IMG/VR virus record: IMGVR_UViG_3300036770_004568
Span: 18,611-82,610 of that record
DNA from: a virus
DNA length: 64,000 bases
Strand: one strand, 5' to 3'
A program made the translations under genes and the position numbers. The notes beneath the pieces were generated by a model. The model was not told the DNA's origin and searched no databases. It was given only the letters and a program-made list of their open reading frames with translations. Below, one piece after another: positions 9,572 to 64,000 of the stretch. Position 1 is the first letter of the stretch. Each line of letters begins with the position of its first letter.

Positions 9572-12436
9572 ATGGCGCTGAAGTTCTCCATCAAACCTAC
9601 TGATCCAGACGATATTCTCTATTCCCAAGCGGGTCGGCCCACGCTTGATCTGCGTTTTGCATCGAGTAAGAGCCTGGTCGATCACGTCTCAGGTCAGAAC
9701 CTGATTGATTTTACGCGTGGTGGCAATGGCGTCGGGACGTATGTGGGTGCTGATGGACTGATCAAGAACTCAGTCATTAACCTACTGCTGCGGAGTGAGG
9801 AGTATGATAATGCAAGTTGGACAAAATCAAGAACAAGCATCTCAGCAAATGCCGGTGCTGCGCCAGATGGATCAATTACCGCAGACAAGTTAGTTGAAGA
9901 CACGTCAGTCAGTCTTACTCATTTGGCTAGTCAAGACGTAACAGTAACTGCTAACACGACTTACTCTTTCAGTGTTTACGCCAAGGCTGTTGAGCGCAGT
10001 CGATTAAGGATTGACTTTTCCGACGCCTCAAATGGTGCCGATTCCGTCTTCGGCTTATTTAATTTAAGCACTGGTACGGTTGCCAGCTCTGGGGCAGGTG
10101 GTAATGGAACTCTTTCTAGCACTTCGATTCAGTCGGCAGGAGACGGTTGGTACCGCTGCATTGTTGTTGGTAAGTTTAACAACACCGATACCGACGGTCG
10201 TGTTCTTCTTTACTTAGACAACGGCACTACTATTACCTACACAGGCGATGGCGCCAGTGGATTGTTTATCTGGGGCGCTCAACTCGAGCAAGCCTCAACC
10301 GTAGGCGAGTATGTCAAGACTACGTCTAGCCTCTCCGGCGCCCCACGCTTTGACCACACTCCTGTGACGGGTGAGAGCTTGGGTTTGCTGGTAGAGGAGG
10401 CTCGGACAAACTTCCTGTTGCGCAGCGAGGAGTTCAATGATGCAAGTTGGAGCAAGAACAACGGAACTATTTCTAGTAACCTATCATCTGCTCCCAATGG
10501 TCTTAATACCGCAGATGCATTTATTCCGGATGCAATAACAGGGCTTACCTACTTACAGCAACAGCCTGCACCACTATCGGCTGGTAGTGTTTACACATTC
10601 AGTATTTTTCTAAAAGCATCAGGGTATTCTTGGGTATTTCTTGATGCTTTTGATGGTACCAATAATCGAACTTGGTTTGATTTATCAAATGGTACCATTG
10701 GTACTGTGACTGCTGGCAACACCTCTACTATTACATCTTATGGTAATGGATGGTATCGCTGTACTCTAACTAGAACTGCTGCACTTACTACAGTTAACTA
10801 TGCGATAGCGGTTGTTACCGGAAACAATTTCCAGAATATTACAGCAAATGGGACATCAGGGATTCTTCTTTGGGGTGCTCAAGTTGAAGCCGGAGCATTT
10901 GCTACTAGCTACATTCCGACTGCTAGTCTTGCTGTAACACGCAATGAAGATGTTGTTAGTATTGTAGGTGCTAACTTTAGGCGATGGTATAGGCAAGCTG
11001 AAGGCGCATTTTACGCTGAAGCTTGTCCTCTCCTGGAGGCGTCTGTATCATCAATTATCCTAAGTGCATCAAATGGTACTTCGACTGATCGTCATACAAT
11101 AACTAGAAACCTGACATCTAGTAATGCGCGTATCTTTTCAAACGTTGCTGGCGTTATTCAGGTTCAATCTGATCTTGGTGTTTGGACTGGAAAGGGTCGA
11201 ATTGCCTATGGATATGCTGCAGATAACTTTGCTGGATCCCTCAATGGAGCTTCTCCTGCCGTCGATACTGCAGGATCAGTGCCAATTGTCAGTGATCTTT
11301 ATATCGGCAGGCGTTCTGATGCAACAACCAACATGATCAATGGTACAGTCTCTAGAATCGCCTATTTTGACCGACGACTTCCCAACGCCACGCTCCAGGC
11401 GATCACCAGCAGTACACCTCCTGCAACGTATGGGAATCTGGTTTTGAACAATGCTAATGATCCGGCTGCCATTGCTGGTGTTCAACCCACACTGGATTAC
11501 CGTTTTGCACGGGATAGGCGTGAGATTGAATCTGTCAGCCTGACGGATAAGCTGACGTACACCGGAGACAATGGCACGTTTGTTGGTTCGGATGGAACCA
11601 TTCAACGTGCAACCACCAATGTCCCCAGGTTTGACCATGACCCGGTCAGTCGGCTTAGCAAGGGGTTATTGGTTGAGGTAAGTCGTGAAAATCTTATTAC
11701 TTGGAGTGAACAGGCCGACAATGCTGCATGGCTTAAAGTTCGATGCTCGATCACGCCAAATGCCGCTACCGCACCAGATGGTCTGCTTACAGCGGATAAA
11801 TTAGTTGAAGACACGTCAAACAATACTCACCGGCTGTATGCGTCAAACGCAACCATTACGGCTGGAGCAACTGTTACTTTTTCGACATTCTTTAAACCTG
11901 CAGAGCGATCTCAGATCAACCTTTTTGTTGATGAAGTTGGTGGAGCCAGCTTTAGTGCATATGCTTCTGCGTCGGGAATTTCTGGTTCTGGTTTTACGGG
12001 AACTGGTTCATATCTATCTGGTTCAGTCACTCCTTATCCAAATGGTTGGTATCGAGCATCAATTACTGGTTCATTGGGCGGTGTAATTACAGCAATCCGT
12101 GAATCTGTATTTACTGCAATTACTAATAACACATCATATCAGGGCGATGGATCTAGTGGTCTTTTCTTGTGGGGCGCTCAACTTGAATCTGGAACATCTT
12201 TTACTACCTATATTCCTACCAGCTCCACAGCAATAACCCGGACCGCCGACTCAGCCGTCATCAATGGCACCGGAGTCATCACCGGCACCTACACGATGAT
12301 CGAAAAGCCTACTGGTTGCGCACTTGTCTCTGGAAGCAACATCAACCTTCAAGCAGGCTATACAGCAGAACGCGTTATGGTCTTTCCTGCTGCTTTGTCT
12401 GCTCAACAGATCACAGATATACGCAATGCGATGTGA
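9572..12436 (+). CDS. Large modular spike/fibre protein
   Basis: The protein has 954 residues. The N-terminus (TLDLRFASSKSLVDHVSG) and later GTYVGADGLIK, PRFDHTPVTGESLGLLVEEA and NFLLRSEEFNDASWSK segments are hallmarks of phage head-spike/fibre proteins with jelly-roll carbohydrate-binding modules. At least three copies of the LLLRSEE(Y/F)(D/N)..W + SADKL(V)...YSFSV + GNGWYRC + LFLWGAQLE module can be followed (from about residues 65, 280 and 690). The last two-thirds end in a second TLDYRF..FVGSDGTIQ start, so the gene looks like two fused spikes. It probably binds host surface glycans. It shares modules with 12494, 30587, 31867 and the C-terminus of 36558. Confidence 0.75.
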   Translation: MALKFSIKPTDPDDILYSQAGRPTLDLRFASSKSLVDHVSGQNLIDFTRGGNGVGTYVGADGLIKNSVINLLLRSEEYDNASWTKSRTSISANAGAAPDGSITADKLVEDTSVSLTHLASQDVTVTANTTYSFSVYAKAVERSRLRIDFSDASNGADSVFGLFNLSTGTVASSGAGGNGTLSSTSIQSAGDGWYRCIVVGKFNNTDTDGRVLLYLDNGTTITYTGDGASGLFIWGAQLEQASTVGEYVKTTSSLSGAPRFDHTPVTGESLGLLVEEARTNFLLRSEEFNDASWSKNNGTISSNLSSAPNGLNTADAFIPDAITGLTYLQQQPAPLSAGSVYTFSIFLKASGYSWVFLDAFDGTNNRTWFDLSNGTIGTVTAGNTSTITSYGNGWYRCTLTRTAALTTVNYAIAVVTGNNFQNITANGTSGILLWGAQVEAGAFATSYIPTASLAVTRNEDVVSIVGANFRRWYRQAEGAFYAEACPLLEASVSSIILSASNGTSTDRHTITRNLTSSNARIFSNVAGVIQVQSDLGVWTGKGRIAYGYAADNFAGSLNGASPAVDTAGSVPIVSDLYIGRRSDATTNMINGTVSRIAYFDRRLPNATLQAITSSTPPATYGNLVLNNANDPAAIAGVQPTLDYRFARDRREIESVSLTDKLTYTGDNGTFVGSDGTIQRATTNVPRFDHDPVSRLSKGLLVEVSRENLITWSEQADNAAWLKVRCSITPNAATAPDGLLTADKLVEDTSNNTHRLYASNATITAGATVTFSTFFKPAERSQINLFVDEVGGASFSAYASASGISGSGFTGTGSYLSGSVTPYPNGWYRASITGSLGGVITAIRESVFTAITNNTSYQGDGSSGLFLWGAQLESGTSFTTYIPTSSTAITRTADSAVINGTGVITGTYTMIEKPTGCALVSGSNINLQAGYTAERVMVFPAALSAQQITDIRNAM

Positions 12437-12448
12437 TATCTGATCAAC

Positions 12449-12454
12449 TAGAAT
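12449..12454 (+). promoter_or_regulatory. TAGAAT promoter element upstream of the second spike gene
   Basis: A TAGAATAG sequence lies 40 bases before ATG 12494. It is one of the repeated TAGAAT elements in this window. Confidence 0.45.
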
Positions 12455-12493
12455 AGTCGTTAGCAAGTCTCTTCGTTCCAGGGTATTGGGGTC

Positions 12494-14359
12494 ATGGGTG
12501 TCAAGATTACAGGTGCTGTTGGTAAAGATGATGATAAGCTCTATTCACTAGCTGGTACACCTACGCTTGATCTTAGATTTGCATCAACCAAAAGTCTGAC
12601 AGACTATGTCTCAGGTAAGAACCTGATCACGTTCACCAGGGCCAGCACTGGGACGTACGTGGACTCCGATGGCGTGATCCGCAGCGCAGCGACGAACTTG
12701 CTGCTCAGGAGTGAGGAGTTTGATAATGCGAGTTGGTCACGTGTGCGGCTAAGTACCGTTAATGCTAATGGAGCAGTTTCCCCTAACGGGACGCTTTCCG
12801 CTGATGAGATGGTAGTGGACACAGCAAATGGCACGCATTCAATCTATAGTAATACTATTTCCTCTACCACTGCGACCTATTCAGCAAGTGTTTACCTAAA
12901 AGCAGGGACTTCAAACTTTGCCTTTTTTGGCTTGACTGATTTGGCAACAGGTGGTGCTGAAAGAAGGATCAACCTTTCTACGGGGGTCGTTGATACTGTC
13001 AATATCGGAGGAGCAGGTTCTTGGACTTCTGTTTCTTCGACTGTTGCCTCTGTTGGCAACGGTTGGTACAGGCTTACAGTGACGGCAACTCAGGGGGGCG
13101 GTACTAGCGTTGCACTCCAGGTACTTGTCGGAAATTCAAGTGGTCAGCGCACTTACTTAGGAAACAACACAGATAGTGTTTACGCATGGGGCGCCCAACT
13201 AGAACTCGGCTCCACGGCCACAACGTACATCCCAACAGGTGCCACGATCAATTCGGCGCCACGCTTCGACCACAACCCGCTCACGGGCGAGTGCCTGGGG
13301 TTGTTGGTCGAGGAGAGCAGAACCAACAGCATTCGCAACAACACGATGGTCGGTGCGGTAGCTGGTACGCCGGGGACGTTGCCAACGAATTGGAGTGAAA
13401 GCCTTGCCGGGCTAACGCGAGAAGTTGTCGGGACAGGAACAACAAACGGCATCAACTGGATTGACCTAAGACTCTCAGGTACATCAACTGGCACGGTTGT
13501 CAATCTCTCAATGGAAGCAATCAATGTGGCGGTGGCTGCTGCTGGTCAGAACTGGACCAACTCTTTCTGGATTGCCCGTGTTGGCGGTACTACAACTAAC
13601 GTCACTGGTGTTAACTCACGCATTCGTTCTTACAATTCAACCCCTGCCTTCTTGGGTCAACATGATGGTTCTGCTATCACTTTAACCAGCTCTCTTGTAA
13701 GGCACGAAGCTACCTATTCAAATTTGCCAGCTACAACAGCATTTGTTGAGCCTGTAGTGCGAGTGGTCGTAGCTAATAGCTCTGCCATCGACATCACCCT
13801 CCGCATCGGCCTGCCCCAGTTAGAGCAGGGGGCATTTGCCACTTCAGTCATCCCCACCACCGGCACCGCTGTCACACGCAGTGCGGATATTGCAACTCTA
13901 TCTGGTACTAACTTTTCGAGTTGGTACTTTCCTGCGCAAGGCACTCTATTTGCATCGATGTCTTCTGCATCTGGTGCTGCATATACGGGCTATGTTCTTT
14001 CTGTAGGTCCTGACTTCAATAATACTATTCAGATGTATCGACAATCTGACACACAGCCTGTTGCGCGAGTACGAGTTGGAGGTGTTGATACTTATGGATC
14101 TATCGGCAGTGGTCCTGTTTGGACGGGTACAACACTTGGAAAGTTTGCATTGGCTTTATCACCATCTAGCGGACGCCAAGCATTTAACGGAACATTAGAT
14201 TCGGCTGGTGATGATCTCAATATTACCTTACCTGTTTCGTCAAGCATGTCCATTGGTTCTCTGGCTGGCTCAAGCATTTTTGCAAATGCGCACATTCGAC
14301 GCATTGCTTACTTTGACCGCCGCTTACCCAACGCCACTCTTCAAGCCATCACAACCTAG
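12494..14359 (+). CDS. Modular spike/fibre protein
   Basis: The protein has 621 residues. Its first ~55 residues (TLDLRFASTKSLTDYVSGK, then FTRASTGTYVDSDGVIR) match the N-terminus of the preceding spike and of the minus-strand spikes. One LLLRSEEFDNASWS module follows. Then comes a PRFDHNPLTGECLGLLVEE joint, and a second module beginning SRTNSIRNNTMVGAVAGTPG. That block recurs nearly unchanged in the minus-strand gene at 30587. The end, RRIAYFDRRLPNATLQAIT, matches the middle of the preceding gene. It is likely a receptor-binding spike. The modular recombination is visible at nucleotide level. Confidence 0.75.
   Translation: MGVKITGAVGKDDDKLYSLAGTPTLDLRFASTKSLTDYVSGKNLITFTRASTGTYVDSDGVIRSAATNLLLRSEEFDNASWSRVRLSTVNANGAVSPNGTLSADEMVVDTANGTHSIYSNTISSTTATYSASVYLKAGTSNFAFFGLTDLATGGAERRINLSTGVVDTVNIGGAGSWTSVSSTVASVGNGWYRLTVTATQGGGTSVALQVLVGNSSGQRTYLGNNTDSVYAWGAQLELGSTATTYIPTGATINSAPRFDHNPLTGECLGLLVEESRTNSIRNNTMVGAVAGTPGTLPTNWSESLAGLTREVVGTGTTNGINWIDLRLSGTSTGTVVNLSMEAINVAVAAAGQNWTNSFWIARVGGTTTNVTGVNSRIRSYNSTPAFLGQHDGSAITLTSSLVRHEATYSNLPATTAFVEPVVRVVVANSSAIDITLRIGLPQLEQGAFATSVIPTTGTAVTRSADIATLSGTNFSSWYFPAQGTLFASMSSASGAAYTGYVLSVGPDFNNTIQMYRQSDTQPVARVRVGGVDTYGSIGSGPVWTGTTLGKFALALSPSSGRQAFNGTLDSAGDDLNITLPVSSSMSIGSLAGSSIFANAHIRRIAYFDRRLPNATLQAITT
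13310..13410 (+). repeat. ~100-bp block shared with the minus-strand spike at 31560-31680
   Basis: The block encoding VEESRTNSIRNNTMVGAVAGTPGT-type sequence is nearly identical to the reverse complement of about 31560-31680. It therefore forms a distant inverted repeat about 18 kb apart. Confidence 0.8.
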
Positions 14360-59955: not shown

Positions 59956-60697
59956 TCAAGAAAGAACCCGGCCGTCCTTGACAAAGCTATACGCACAGGT
60001 GATGAAATCCTTATTCAGGCATTCAAAACCGGCGTAAAGTTGCCAGATGAGAATAATCGCCCTGCTGAAGTCGTCATTATTATTGATGAGGACTTGAGCG
60101 TTCGGACCACCGATACCCACACCAATTGCCTGAGGACCAAAGAAGTAACCTTGGGCAACTTCCTCAGCGACGGCAGAACCAGACTCAAGCTTAGCTTGAA
60201 CAGTTTTAGTCGGGTAGTTTGTTGATTCGAAGAATTTGACGCCCTCAAAGATCACGCCAGTAGGCATAACGGGTTCACCAGCCAGGAAATAAGCCTGACC
60301 AGCTTGAGGACCCATGTAGAATGAAGCGTTATTGGGCATTGCAGGGTTGCCCATATACATGCCCTGTCCAGGATTGCCAGCGTAGCGTGCAATCTCACGG
60401 AAGTCCGGATCCCTGCGGAGGTGCATCATGAAGGTGGGATCAACAATGGCCCGATACAGACCATCAGCATAAGTAGGCACATTGCGCTTACGCATCGACT
60501 TAACGATGTTCAGCAGGTCAGTGCGCACTTGGAATTGGTGCAGGCCAAGAGAAAAGGCAGCAGTTGCACCACCACTTCCGTAGTAGTCGAGGCTGGTCTC
60601 TTCTTTACCCATGGGGTAGTAGTAGCCACCTTGAGAATCGCCAGCAGGACCACGAGCGTGGGCTTTGGCTAGTTCATCAAGGAAAATACGATCCAAA
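59956..60697 (-). CDS. Major capsid protein, 3' exon (N4-gp56-like)
   Basis: This is the last and largest exon (742 nt). It encodes ~247 C-terminal residues starting LDRIFLDELAKAHARG. GATAAFSLGLHQFQVRTDL, PTFMMHLRRDPDFREIARY and GPNAQVLINNNDDFSRAIIL are typical of HK97-fold capsid proteins of the N4-gp56 kind. The five exons upstream at 60958-60974, 61194-61342, 62291-62463, 63556-63645 and about 63872-63886 complete the frame; the 5' end lies beyond the window. A simple ORF caller would wrongly start this exon at TTG 60696. Only the spliced product is a full capsid protein. Confidence 0.85.
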
Positions 60698-60957
60698 CAT
60701 GTTTCTCCAGGGCTTTTAACCCCTGGCTCTATAGCTTTACCATGGCTATAGTTCAGGCTATATCACGATCTAGATGGTCTAGATCCCCGGCACTCGTGGG
60801 AGAAGTGACTGACCGGACTGGTCTTGTCTCCTAGTCGTTGCACCTTCTAGTTAATTCCTTAACTAGCTTGGCTCAGGATTCCCCTTGGTTTGGCGGGGTT
60901 CCCTGAATTCACCGGGTTATTGCCCACTATTCACATAGTGGCGGCGCAATTGTATTT
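60698..60957 (-). ncRNA. Group I intron 6 of the capsid gene (no ORF)
   Basis: The intron is 260 nt. It has the P/Q pair GGTGAATTCAGGG...AATCCTGAGCCAAG, R-type GCAACGACTAGG and S-type GATATAGCCTGAAC. The 5' splice site follows GGCGT, which pairs with intron GCGCC through a U-G pair (P1). The 3' end G 60698 is chosen by reading frame. P10 pairing is short (TTG/CAA). Confidence 0.8.
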
Positions 60958-60974
60958 ACGCCAGCGGCGATAGT
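60958..60974 (-). CDS. Major capsid protein, 17-nt micro-exon
   Basis: ACTATCGCCGCTGGCGT encodes TIAAG plus two bases of Val. It is bounded by two independent group I introns. The left edge is supported by ACTAT pairing with intron 5 ATAGT (P10), the right edge by P1 of intron 6. The frame continues on both sides (LLD-TIAAGV-LDRIF). Confidence 0.75.
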
Positions 60975-61193
60975 CCGTGTATTCCGCTTAGGTTTCCCTA
61001 GGGACTGACTATATCTTCACCCTATGAATAGGGTGCAGGACGCTCATGCCTGTAATCAGGTAGTCGATGCACTGTCTAGAATCAGTGTTCTAGCTTAGCT
61101 CAGTGTTGCCATAGGTTTCGCCAAACCCTTAGGTTTCACTGAATTCATCCTGTTATTCACTAGACATTTACATGTCTAGGCGACAACTATTTT
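60975..61193 (-). ncRNA. Group I intron 5 of the capsid gene (no ORF)
   Basis: The intron is 219 nt. P element GATGAATTCAGTGAAACC, Q CACTGAGCTAAGC, R GCATCGACTACC and S GAAGATATAGTCAGTCC are present. P1 is exon CGAT with intron GTCG, ending in the conserved U-G pair. P10 is 3' exon ACTAT with intron ATAGT. Both splice sites are therefore well fixed. Confidence 0.88.
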
Positions 61194-61342
61194 ATCGAGC
61201 AGAGTGAGGCTACCGATGGACTGGTGAAACTGATTCAGGTTACCAGTATCGAGCAGCATCCGTTGCGCGGTGACTAGAGTCTCCCGAGCAATTTTGAAGC
61301 TTGAAGGCTGAGTCGGATCGGTCGGATCAGCAGGGCCGGTAT
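61194..61342 (-). CDS. Major capsid protein, exon of 149 nt
   Basis: The exon encodes (Y)TGPADPTDPTQPSSFKIARE to SIGSLTLLD. It starts at the second base of a Tyr codon and ends on a codon boundary. Its length (149 nt) fits the frame exactly at both junctions. Confidence 0.83.
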
Positions 61343-62290
61343 CAATTGTGTTATCCCAAGGGTGTTGATCCCTTGGCTCTATGGTTTTACCATTACCATA
61401 GTTCAGACTATATCATCACCCGTCCCAGGGGGATTGGGTGCGAGGCACTCGTGACGCAATTGTGATTTCTCTGTTTTTATTTGAGTTATACAATCTGATC
61501 ACGTCAGACACTTTTTCTGTCCGACTTAAATCAGTCTTGTATTTGAGAGAAGGAAGTACATACTCATCAATGGAAGACAAAAGCATTTTAAGCTGTTTAG
61601 TATTCCACTTTAAATAGAACTTACCTGTTTTATGACAAACTTTTGTGTAAGTGGATCCTGTTAAATCATGGATCCATGAACCAACAATATCAGTTGTTGG
61701 TTCATCTTCACAAACAGCCAACCATCCCACTCTTTCAATCTTTACTGAACCACTCGGCTTAATTCTTTTGCGAACTTCCAGTGAACCATCATCCATCCAA
61801 AATAGAGCAAGCTCTTTAAGACCAAGATTCTGAAGAACTTCGACGCTAAGAGTCTTTTTGCCTTGTGGATACAGCAGGTTGTAAATGGGGGTTAAAAATT
61901 TCTTACTTGTTACACCAAAGCGCACAGCAGGGTAAATACCTTTGTCTTTGAAGTATTTCAATTGTGCGTGTGTACCCAAGATACTGTTTAACTGCTCTAG
62001 TTGCCATTGAGCGTACTCAACATGAGCATACTGACGCTGGATGTGCAGAGTCGTTGATTCAGATCTTTTTGATTTGGAAATACAACCATCTCCGATGGCA
62101 CATCCAATAAGAAATTTTTGCTGTTCAATGTTTATCATAAAACCATCTAGCGTTAGTCGTTGAACCTTCCGTGTCCTTAAAACGGCTTGGCTGCTGATTC
62201 CCCAATAGGATAGCAAAAAATCCTCTGGAGGGGTTCCAGCAATTCACCTCGTTATCGACGCAGATTACGCTGCGAAGGAGCTACCAATTA
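61343..62290 (-). ncRNA. Group I intron 4 of the capsid gene, with LAGLIDADG gene
   Basis: The intron is 948 nt. P GGTGAATTGCTGG, Q AATCAGCAGCCAAGCC, R GGTTCAACGACTAACG and S GATGATATAGTCTGAAC are present. P1 is exon GAGT with intron GCTC (U-G at the site). P10 is exon TACC with intron GGTA. The sense-strand endonuclease gene is placed between R and S. Confidence 0.88.
61416..62138 (-). CDS. LAGLIDADG homing endonuclease in intron 4
   Basis: I take MINIEQQKFLIGCAIGDG at 62138 as the start; the longer frame reads the intron's own 5' core. The product is 240 residues. FLIGCAIGDGCI and LALFWMDDGSLEV are the two LAGLIDADG helices with their acidic residues (D9/D10 type). The C-terminus (SRVPRTQSPWDG) overlaps the intron 3' core. 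It has the same orientation as the capsid gene. It would cut intron-free alleles and spread the intron. Confidence 0.85.
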   Translation of the reverse strand: MINIEQQKFLIGCAIGDGCISKSKRSESTTLHIQRQYAHVEYAQWQLEQLNSILGTHAQLKYFKDKGIYPAVRFGVTSKKFLTPIYNLLYPQGKKTLSVEVLQNLGLKELALFWMDDGSLEVRKRIKPSGSVKIERVGWLAVCEDEPTTDIVGSWIHDLTGSTYTKVCHKTGKFYLKWNTKQLKMLLSSIDEYVLPSLKYKTDLSRTEKVSDVIRLYNSNKNREITIASRVPRTQSPWDG

Positions 62291-62463
62291 ACTCTTTGAG
62301 CACCACCAGGACTTTCTCCTTGGTGATGTTACGGCTGCTAGCAGATCCAATGGTTTGATCAGGAAGACGCTCACGGCTTTCTTTAGTACCGGGCGAGCTC
62401 CAGAACTTATAGCGGTCAAGCTGCACTGTTTGGCCAGGCTGACGGGTGAAGTCGTGGACGACA
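62291..62463 (-). CDS. Major capsid protein, exon of 173 nt
   Basis: The exon encodes VVHDFTRQPGQTVQLDRYKF to KEKVLVVLKE(Y), the region aligned with the N-terminal arm and E-loop of N4-type capsid proteins. It starts with one base completing Val and ends with one base of Tyr. The length fits the frame. It is also covered in antisense by an extension of the plus-strand frame at 62355, which is not coding there. Confidence 0.83.
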
Positions 62464-63555
62464 CTTGGTATTCCCGTCTGGCATTGATAAGCTGCTTAGA
62501 CGGTACTCACGGGTTTTCTATCCCCATGTCCAGACTATATCATATTCCCAGGACTGTTTCTGTTTCTCAAATCTTGCCTGATGAAGTTGAACACTACGCA
62601 TCAAGAATGTCGGACAAAGATGCGGCGATTGCTATTGGAATCTCTTATGTCTCTTTTTGGAAGTTAAGAAACAAATACAACATCAAATCTTTCTTTGAAA
62701 GAACAGGTCTCAGGAAGGACAAATCTACTGGAAAGCTTTTTCGTTTTTACCAATACAATGAGCGCTATTTCTCGTCAATTGATTCTACGGACAAAGCATA
62801 TTTCCTCGGACTACTAGCGTCTGATGGAAATATCTCCCCTCGTCTTACTGCTTGTCGGATTGCTCTTAAGCACTCAGACGCAGATATCCTTGATCACTTT
62901 AGGCTTTGCTTGGGAGCGGATTCTCCTCCCCTTAAGACTAAAGTGTCAAAAATCAATGGCGTTGAAAACGAGCCTCAAAAGGTATTGGTTCTAAGTCGAA
63001 CTTCTATGGTTAATGATCTAATCGAACTAGGGATAGTTCCAAATAAGTCAAAAACTCTAGAAATCAAATGTCCAAGCCTTAAAGACAATGAATTATGCAC
63101 TGCCTTTCTTCGAGGCGTTTGGGATGGAGACGGATCTATTACTCACCGACGTTTCAAAGTCGTTACTGCATCTGTTAAATTTGCATGTCAGCTCGACCAA
63201 ATGATTCATCAAGTGACTGGTATTCATTTGAAACCTTCTGTTCAACGTCCTAAATCAGGAAATCCGTTATTCGAATTCTCTGGTTATGTCAAAGATGCAG
63301 CTGTCCTGCATGCGCTATACAAAGATCCGTCACCAGCTCTTAAACGAAAGAAGCTTCAATACGAGTTGCACTGGGAATCTCGGCGCTAATTGTCCTCATC
63401 ATCTCATGGAGATGGTACGACATAGTCGTTGAACCTTCTATTGATCACTCAATAGCTTGGCTGCTGATTGCCCTAATCAAAATTCTGATGAGAGGGTTTC
63501 CAGCAATTCACCGAGTTTTCATTTCATGATTACTCATGAACGCGGCTGTCAATCA
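62464..63555 (-). ncRNA. Group I intron 3 of the capsid gene, with antisense endonuclease gene
   Basis: The intron is 1092 nt. P GGTGAATTGCTGG, Q AATCAGCAGCCAAGCT, R GTTCAACGACTATG and S GATATAGTCTGG are all on the minus strand. P1 is exon CGGT with intron GCCG (U-G at the site). P10 is exon TGTC with intron GACA. The inserted gene reads on the plus strand. Confidence 0.85.
62526..63389 (+). CDS. LAGLIDADG homing endonuclease, antisense to intron 3
   Basis: The product is ~287 residues. I start at ATG 62526 because the HTH-like DEVEHYASRMSDKDAAIAIG segment follows within frame; ATG 62607 is an alternative. The frame is open 5' to 62355, but that part is antisense to a capsid exon. The two LAGLIDADG motifs are YFLGLLASDGNI and FLRGVWDGDGSI, both with catalytic Asp. 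The first codons overlap the intron S element in antisense. Sense orientation is usual for intron genes, so this is atypical. Confidence 0.83.
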   Translation: MSRLYHIPRTVSVSQILPDEVEHYASRMSDKDAAIAIGISYVSFWKLRNKYNIKSFFERTGLRKDKSTGKLFRFYQYNERYFSSIDSTDKAYFLGLLASDGNISPRLTACRIALKHSDADILDHFRLCLGADSPPLKTKVSKINGVENEPQKVLVLSRTSMVNDLIELGIVPNKSKTLEIKCPSLKDNELCTAFLRGVWDGDGSITHRRFKVVTASVKFACQLDQMIHQVTGIHLKPSVQRPKSGNPLFEFSGYVKDAAVLHALYKDPSPALKRKKLQYELHWESRR

Positions 63556-63645
63556 ACCGGTTCCGTAGCCATTTCCGCGATGTACGCGGGGTGCTTTACT
63601 ACTACAGCTTTCACTGCCACTGACATCTTGCCATGTGTTTGTAGT
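63556..63645 (-). CDS. Major capsid protein, exon of 90 nt
   Basis: The exon encodes LQTHGKMSVAVKAVVVKHPA to AEMATEP(V). It starts with one base of a codon and ends with two bases of Val. The right edge is fixed by intron 3 P1 and P10. The left edge (63645) is less certain: it was chosen for frame, a preceding G and a 3-bp P10. Confidence 0.7.
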
Positions 63646-63871
63646 CTGGCTGTTGATTGGATTTGTGGTACCAATCAAACCCTGTACCTTCTCCGGTTTC
63701 ATGATAGAAACTACGGAGCCTACCGTCCAGGCTCTACACCTTCCCGTTGACGGGCTTGGCTCGGTATTCCCCACCTCTAGGGGTTCACCGAATTTGGCAG
63801 GTATTACCCTACGACTTTCATCGTAGGCGCCCCACTCGTGAATTGTCGTGAGAGGGATTGACAATTCAATT
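63646..63871 (-). ncRNA. Group I intron 2 of the capsid gene (no ORF)
   Basis: The intron is about 226 nt. P AAATTCGGTGAACCCC, Q GGGGAATACCGAGCCAAGCC and R GGTGTAGAGCCTGGACGG are clear. S is variant (GAAGGTACAGGG); its CAGG pairs with CCTG in R, so P7 is kept by compensatory changes. P2 is CCTACGA/TCGTAGG. P1 GCCTT/GGGGC uses two U-G pairs. Boundaries may shift by a few bases. Confidence 0.65.
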
Positions 63872-63886
63872 AAGGCCGGTATAGTT
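63872..63886 (-). CDS. Major capsid protein, possible 15-nt micro-exon
   Basis: AACTATACCGGCCTT would encode (x)TIPA(L) and join in frame to LQTHGKM. It lies between intron 2 and the 3' core of intron 1. The limits are inferred by frame only, because the intron 1 5' splice site is outside the window. Confidence 0.4.
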
Positions 63887-64000
63887 CAGCTCCCAAAATC
63901 TTGGGAAAATCATTCATCATATCTCTAGTTACCTAGAGGACGGACTATCTCTTCACCCCTGTAGGGTGCCAGGCGCTTGTGACGATTGACTGATGAAGCC
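63887..64000 (-). ncRNA. Group I intron 1 of the capsid gene (3' part only)
   Basis: The S element GAAGAGATAGTCCGTCC and a P9-type hairpin CTCTAGGTAACTAGAG are present, followed by a CCCAAGATTTTGGG hairpin before the proposed 3' site. The 5' part lies beyond the right edge. Any gene inside it cannot be seen. Confidence 0.7.

Follow-up and report, generated by a model that had tools for sequence, protein, structure and literature searches.

Six group I introns in the predicted major capsid gene of a putative S-EIV1-like cyanophage

How can a phage capsid protein be read from a gene whose coding sequence is broken into short pieces, one of them only 18 nt long? The question is raised by the end of a 64,000-nt stretch of DNA, hereafter the window, which comprises the last 64,000 nt of the 82,610-nt virus record IMGVR_UViG_3300036770_004568. 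A first-pass annotation, made from the letters alone, had proposed that six or more group I introns split a capsid gene here on the minus strand and that the pieces between them join into one protein. The answer is very probably that six self-splicing group I introns, each acquired independently, have entered the major capsid protein (MCP) gene of a cyanophage akin to S-EIV1, and that one mRNA for a protein of ~389 aa would be made from it.

The number of introns agrees between two covariance models. Rfam RF00028 recognizes six group I stretches, all on the minus strand (scores in Table 1). Because just two of these matches lie above the curated cut-off, an independent model, R1, was built from the cores of 16 introns that occupy codon 5 of the same gene in other phages, with zero window sequence among them. 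A covariance-model search had been suggested by the annotation as a check, and over the 64 kb R1 returned exactly six matches at E ≤ 3e-6 (1.6e-23 to 2.7e-6), all of them in the capsid gene and none in the window outside it. In the alignment on which R1 was trained, the named structure, including the P7 pseudoknot, is paired in 98% of cells, and 15 pairs have changed on both sides, compared with 5.4 in shuffles and at most three when the structure is slid along the alignment. The two P7 strands could be placed in introns 2–6 and the 3′ strand alone in intron 1, which is truncated. All five complete introns are preceded by U and end in G, as does intron 1 at its one visible border; imposing this U/G rule on the exon alignment described below costs nothing (score 1520 with the rule or without). 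A separate observation concerns the 16 codon-5 introns themselves (alignment A1, columns 23/44), in which G.U and A.C replace each other in concert at one P5 position, as expected for isosteric wobble pairs.

To delimit the exons, the minus strand was compared with the intact capsid protein of a relative (L008, 386 aa) by dynamic programming that allows for splicing. Six exons were recovered with a score of 1540, free of internal stops and frameshifts, and the reading frame is restored at five of five joints, as had been claimed. Swapping the interrupted part for shuffled DNA lowers the score to 926–952. The exon sizes given earlier (15, 90, 173, 149, 17 and 742 nt) hold for the 173- and 149-nt exons; the remaining four become 42, 38, 18 and 738 nt (the last including the stop), the supposed 90-nt exon having mixed intron 2 with exon 3 and the supposed 15-nt exon really measuring 42 nt. 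That order also lacked a first exon: the capsid genes of relatives open with 12 nt (GTG or ATG, then TTY ATT GAT) ahead of the codon-5 intron, and such an exon 1 may be expected here too, beyond the contig end. The spliced product comprises 385 aa, plus four residues lost with the contig end. Among its joint-spanning peptides, of which LTLLDDYRRWRDR is an example, KE-YTGPADP reads as first proposed, and LLD-TIAAGV-LDR has to be replaced by LLD-DYRRWR-DR. The hexapeptide DYRRWR, which is the entire 18-nt exon, is found a single time when the window is translated in six frames, and 31 relatives share it without change. As to its identity, the spliced protein matches phrog_1357 (major head protein) with E 1.4e-14 over residues 31–377.

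Table 1. Exons, introns and intron-borne endonuclease genes of the predicted capsid gene, in window coordinates (R1, independent covariance model)
Feature	Coordinates	Strand	Length	RF00028 (bits)	R1 (bits)	Content and evidence
Intron 1, 3′ end	63915..64000	-		21.1 (cut 5′)	31.1	P3 3′ strand, P8, P7 3′ strand GAGAUAGUCC; 3′ splice site GATG/AATGAT; remainder beyond contig end
Exon 2	63873..63914	-	42 nt			NDFPKILGAELYRP; spliced alignment to intact L008 MCP
Intron 2	63594..63872	-	279 nt	23.9	41.2	Group I, variant P7 (GAGCCUG / ACAGGG); no endonuclease
Exon 3	63556..63593	-	38 nt			HPAYIAEMATEPV; spliced alignment
Intron 3	62464..63555	-	1092 nt	49.2	64.3	Group I core broken by antisense endonuclease gene
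LAGLIDADG_3 homing endonuclease open reading frame (ORF), intact	62526..63389	+	287 aa			Within intron 3, antisense; PF14528 E 1.4e-8; phrog_4645 E 7e-39
Exon 4	62291..62463	-	173 nt			(V)VVHDFTRQPGQ...VVLKE(Y); spliced alignment
Intron 4	61343..62290	-	948 nt	31.3	25.7	Group I with sense-strand endonuclease gene
LAGLIDADG_2 homing endonuclease ORF, intact	61416..62138	-	240 aa			Within intron 4; PF03161 E 3.8e-18
Exon 5	61194..61342	-	149 nt			(Y)TGPADP...SLTLLD; spliced alignment
Intron 5	60976..61193	-	218 nt	77.1	83.2	Group I core complete, ORF-free; P10 AUAGUU/GACUAU
Exon 6 (micro-exon)	60958..60975	-	18 nt			DYRRWR; spliced alignment
Intron 6	60694..60957	-	264 nt	54.5	82.9	Group I core, no ORF; P7 3′ strand UAGCC
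Exon 7	59956..60693	-	738 nt incl. stop			DRIFLDEL... to major capsid protein C-terminus; alone, phrog_1357 major head protein E 4e-12

Judged by its gene content, the record represents part of the genome of an S-EIV1-like cyanophage. S-EIV1 (KJ410740) is the closest isolate by capsid (72% identity over exon 7) and the sole isolate that matches; its gene order is kept for both downstream genes compared, whereas its capsid gene is uninterrupted. Its GenBank record shows two hypothetical proteins in the capsid region (KJ410740 60784-62010, L087 8494-9720), one of them on the opposite strand, and misses a 383-codon capsid ORF with a GTG start (L087:8569-9720). The record analysed here also carries a psbA gene (photosystem II D1; L088 (G000:C1) 12707-14000, plus strand, outside the window) with a 242-nt group I intron of its own (89 bits), and an endonuclease VII-like HNH gene lies just upstream of it (12226-12645). 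This psbA intron partly resembles that of S-PM2, which is likewise a cyanophage group I intron, though in a host gene other than that of the capsid introns; the spacing suggests that the two psbA introns occupy different insertion sites.

Could the locus be a decaying, non-functional copy, the working capsid gene lying at another locus or in the stretch of genome that the contig lacks? The incompleteness of the contig and an irregular P7 in intron 6 would fit such a scenario, and the first-pass annotation itself had named this alternative, a decayed copy next to an intact gene. No second capsid copy was found in the 82.6-kb contig, however, and in comparisons of the window with eight relatives the ratio of nonsynonymous to synonymous substitution (dN/dS) comes to 0.035–0.060 for exons 2–6 and 0.07–0.21 for exon 7, values that are rough since synonymous sites are near saturation. 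At a dN/dS of ~0.04, the intron-bearing part of the coding sequence is under strong purifying selection, a pattern at odds with decay, as are the stop-free exons, the intact endonuclease ORFs and the usual downstream gene order. We therefore regard a decayed copy as highly improbable.

For all six introns, other contigs contain a homologue inserted at the identical nucleotide. Intron 1 (codon 5) has a copy in L028 that is 85% identical and many further same-site relatives. Intron 2 (codon 19) is matched by L120 (84% over 124 nt), whose copy carries a LAGLIDADG_2 ORF. The codon-19 introns (window 63688-63736, minus strand; L120 3560-4484) share their unusual P7 (GAGCCUG / ACAGGG) together with compensatory changes in P3 and form a subgroup distinct from the other capsid introns. 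Same-site homologues of intron 3 (codon 31) are found in L108 and L199 (86–88%), and some 15 contigs have one of intron 4 (codon 89, phase 1). The endonuclease of intron 4 has relatives in other phages at 49–68% identity; when viral contigs were probed with that of intron 3, no relative passed. For intron 5 (codon 139), the same-site relative is that of L117 (70%), likewise small and ORF-free; junction-pattern matches in L116 and L118 were discarded as chance, no capsid being present there. Intron 6 (codon 145) has same-site relatives in L199–L204 and L206, with 83% identity to L201 and L204, and six of these same-site copies measure 1.13–1.15 kb, five of the six with an antisense ORF. Endonuclease genes are intact in introns 3 and 4 and absent from introns 2, 5 and 6. 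Introns 2 and 6, both short and with same-site relatives that encode an endonuclease, look like versions left after loss of that gene.

These comparisons bear on whether the arrangement might partly be an assembly chimera of co-occurring intron-bearing strains, the introns themselves being real. The sequence is a metagenome contig, and related strains of the family do differ in their intron sets. Yet the exons taken together align best as a single protein, which occupies its own branch of the capsid tree (nearest relative 82% identical), and the introns have diverged from their nearest homologues (70–88%), so that no known strain supplied them. In addition, comparable loads recur on independent contigs: four introns each in L117 and L120 and five in L199, the highest besides the window. 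A chimeric origin consequently seems to us scarcely credible.

How general the phenomenon is can be gauged from ~180 related capsid loci. Their capsid genes contain 0–5 introns each at 18 called positions, of which 15–18 are safe given that the near-adjacent pairs 18/19, 36/37, 88/89 and 139/140 may be alternative readings of one site; a codon-37 call in L110 and the alignment of L112 were discounted as contig-edge artefacts. In two samples of 72 and 70 capsid genes that reach the 5′ end, drawn irrespective of introns, at least one intron is present in 28 and 9 genes, leaving 44/72 and 61/70 uninterrupted, like that of S-EIV1. On the capsid tree, whose rows include loci found by intron searches, no fewer than 17 changes are needed to explain the codon-5 intron and 11 to explain the one at codon 89, a scattered presence as would be expected of homing elements. 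An Rfam scan of 49 related records placed all matches in the capsid gene, by coordinate comparison, with the exception of a single weak one (G032, 17 bits); many of these records are short stretches surrounding the capsid gene, and those of more than 40 kb show the same concentration. In the genome studied here, six of seven introns lie in the capsid gene and the seventh in psbA. Throughout the lineage, the capsid gene thus serves as a landing zone for mobile introns. Family capsid genes were also seen in five contigs filed as bacterial or archaeal metagenome-assembled genomes (L207–L211, the last being PAJN01000013.1), one of them with a codon-36 intron; these are probably phage contigs binned by mistake.

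Within the gene (386 codons), all sites but one fall among the first 146 (p ~8e-7 versus uniform placement), which are its more conserved part. Inside these 146 codons, conservation at intron sites does not differ from that at other positions (p 0.22), so the only clear bias is toward the conserved front of the gene. This clustering could be taken as a sign that the introns have been recruited for regulation, with slow or conditional splicing of six ribozymes timing or limiting capsid synthesis: little protein would be made before splicing, and the hot spot recurs across the lineage. The same bias is explained equally well by the higher conservation of the gene front, though, and the majority of relatives are intron-free, meaning that no shared function requires introns, while their patchy gain and loss fits selfish mobility. 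A regulatory role is accordingly improbable in our estimation, if marginally less so than decay or chimerism.

We favour a history in which six homing introns were acquired separately, those at positions 3 and 4 being full mobile elements with LAGLIDADG endonucleases. Each intron would be self-spliced from the late transcript to yield a single capsid mRNA, and the set would be maintained by site-specific homing among co-infecting relatives together with purifying selection on the exons. That splicing efficiency would in turn govern virion yield is a proposal of the first-pass annotation. Homing endonucleases aim at sequence that co-infecting relatives share almost unchanged, and no part of the gene is better conserved than its first 40%, which would explain why introns accumulate in the capsid front. 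A bolder version, in which the capsid gene of this lineage is a near-exclusive battleground of homing elements whose stacked introns favour their carrier, the load being selected rather than merely tolerated, we consider unlikely; if true, the advantage would come from destroying the capsid genes of rivals during co-infection or from splicing-gated late capsid synthesis.

Several points weigh against the history of separately acquired, self-splicing introns. Splicing, homing and horizontal acquisition we infer from established group I biology. The intron-rich gene reaches the very end of the record and is cut off inside intron 1, so that relatives served to reconstruct exon 1 as well as the beginning of intron 1; circular closure of the contig as a way to recover exon 1 was dropped, there being no end overlap and the contig start holding unrelated genes. 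The terminase large subunit was not found in the 82.6-kb contig either, which is incomplete. As the annotation had stated, P1 (with its U.G pair) and P10 pairings are present in introns 2–6, but they are short, and P1 strength, which ranks 1st to 14th among 56–72 nearby T sites, is not discriminating and was abandoned as a stand-alone splice-site test. The scores of intron 2 are weak, and its P7 is unusual. In intron 6, the P7 3′ strand (60764-60753, minus strand) reads UAGCC instead of the usual UAGUC, creating an A.C mismatch beside the guanosine-binding site that is absent from seven same-site relatives; it could be a true weakening or a sequence error. Finally, the capsid assignment rests on the PHROG profile and synteny: the structure predicted with 30 relatives has a mean confidence (pLDDT) of 49.7, too low to use, and does not confirm an HK97 fold; a Foldseek search with this low-confidence model lists phage capsids at the top, none of them significant, and a profile search of the PDB with the capsid gave nothing.

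Introns in phage capsid genes are not new as such. The major capsid gene of mycobacteriophage LittleE contains a probable group I intron with an opposite-strand endonuclease ORF, whose splicing was proven by reverse transcription PCR and N-terminal sequencing (PMC3706429), and the same paper cites a capsid intron in the lactococcal phage Tuc2009. LittleE and the window thus share an MCP intron, but LittleE has one rather than six, and the phages are unrelated. In the crAss-like Zeta phage cMAG OLRF01000054, the MCP gene comes in five fragments, with at least three of the four insertions containing domains typical of group I introns (PMC7886860); this is one example gene with four insertions, as compared to six, an 18-nt exon and ~15–18 sites across a lineage. 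Several group I introns per gene are also known from Twort, with three in one gene (Landthaler and Shub 1999, as cited in PMC11878797), and from Bastillevirinae, with two or three (PMC11878797), yet these are non-capsid genes with at most three introns. Jug phages carry a mean of 18.5 introns per genome, and metatranscriptome reads support splicing of 37 of 76 (PMC12363816). Text searches, with most subscription journals outside their scope, found no title or abstract on capsid introns in S-EIV1 or other cyanophages. The annotation's novelty claim is softened here because the five-fragment crAss-like capsid gene and single capsid introns have been published; what appears unreported is the combination of six introns in one capsid gene, an 18-nt exon and a lineage-wide concentration in that gene.

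As far as the literature found shows, this is the most intron-riddled phage gene described, and the load sits in the gene whose product is needed in the greatest amount. For genome annotation, this means that the capsid marker gene of intron-bearing genomes can be overlooked or cut short by standard gene calling. For the biology of the family, the lineage amounts to a natural experiment in which one gene carries anything from 0 to 6 introns, at sites that its members have in common. Two questions become testable in this way: the cost of intron load to a phage, and the reason for which homing elements settle in a single gene.

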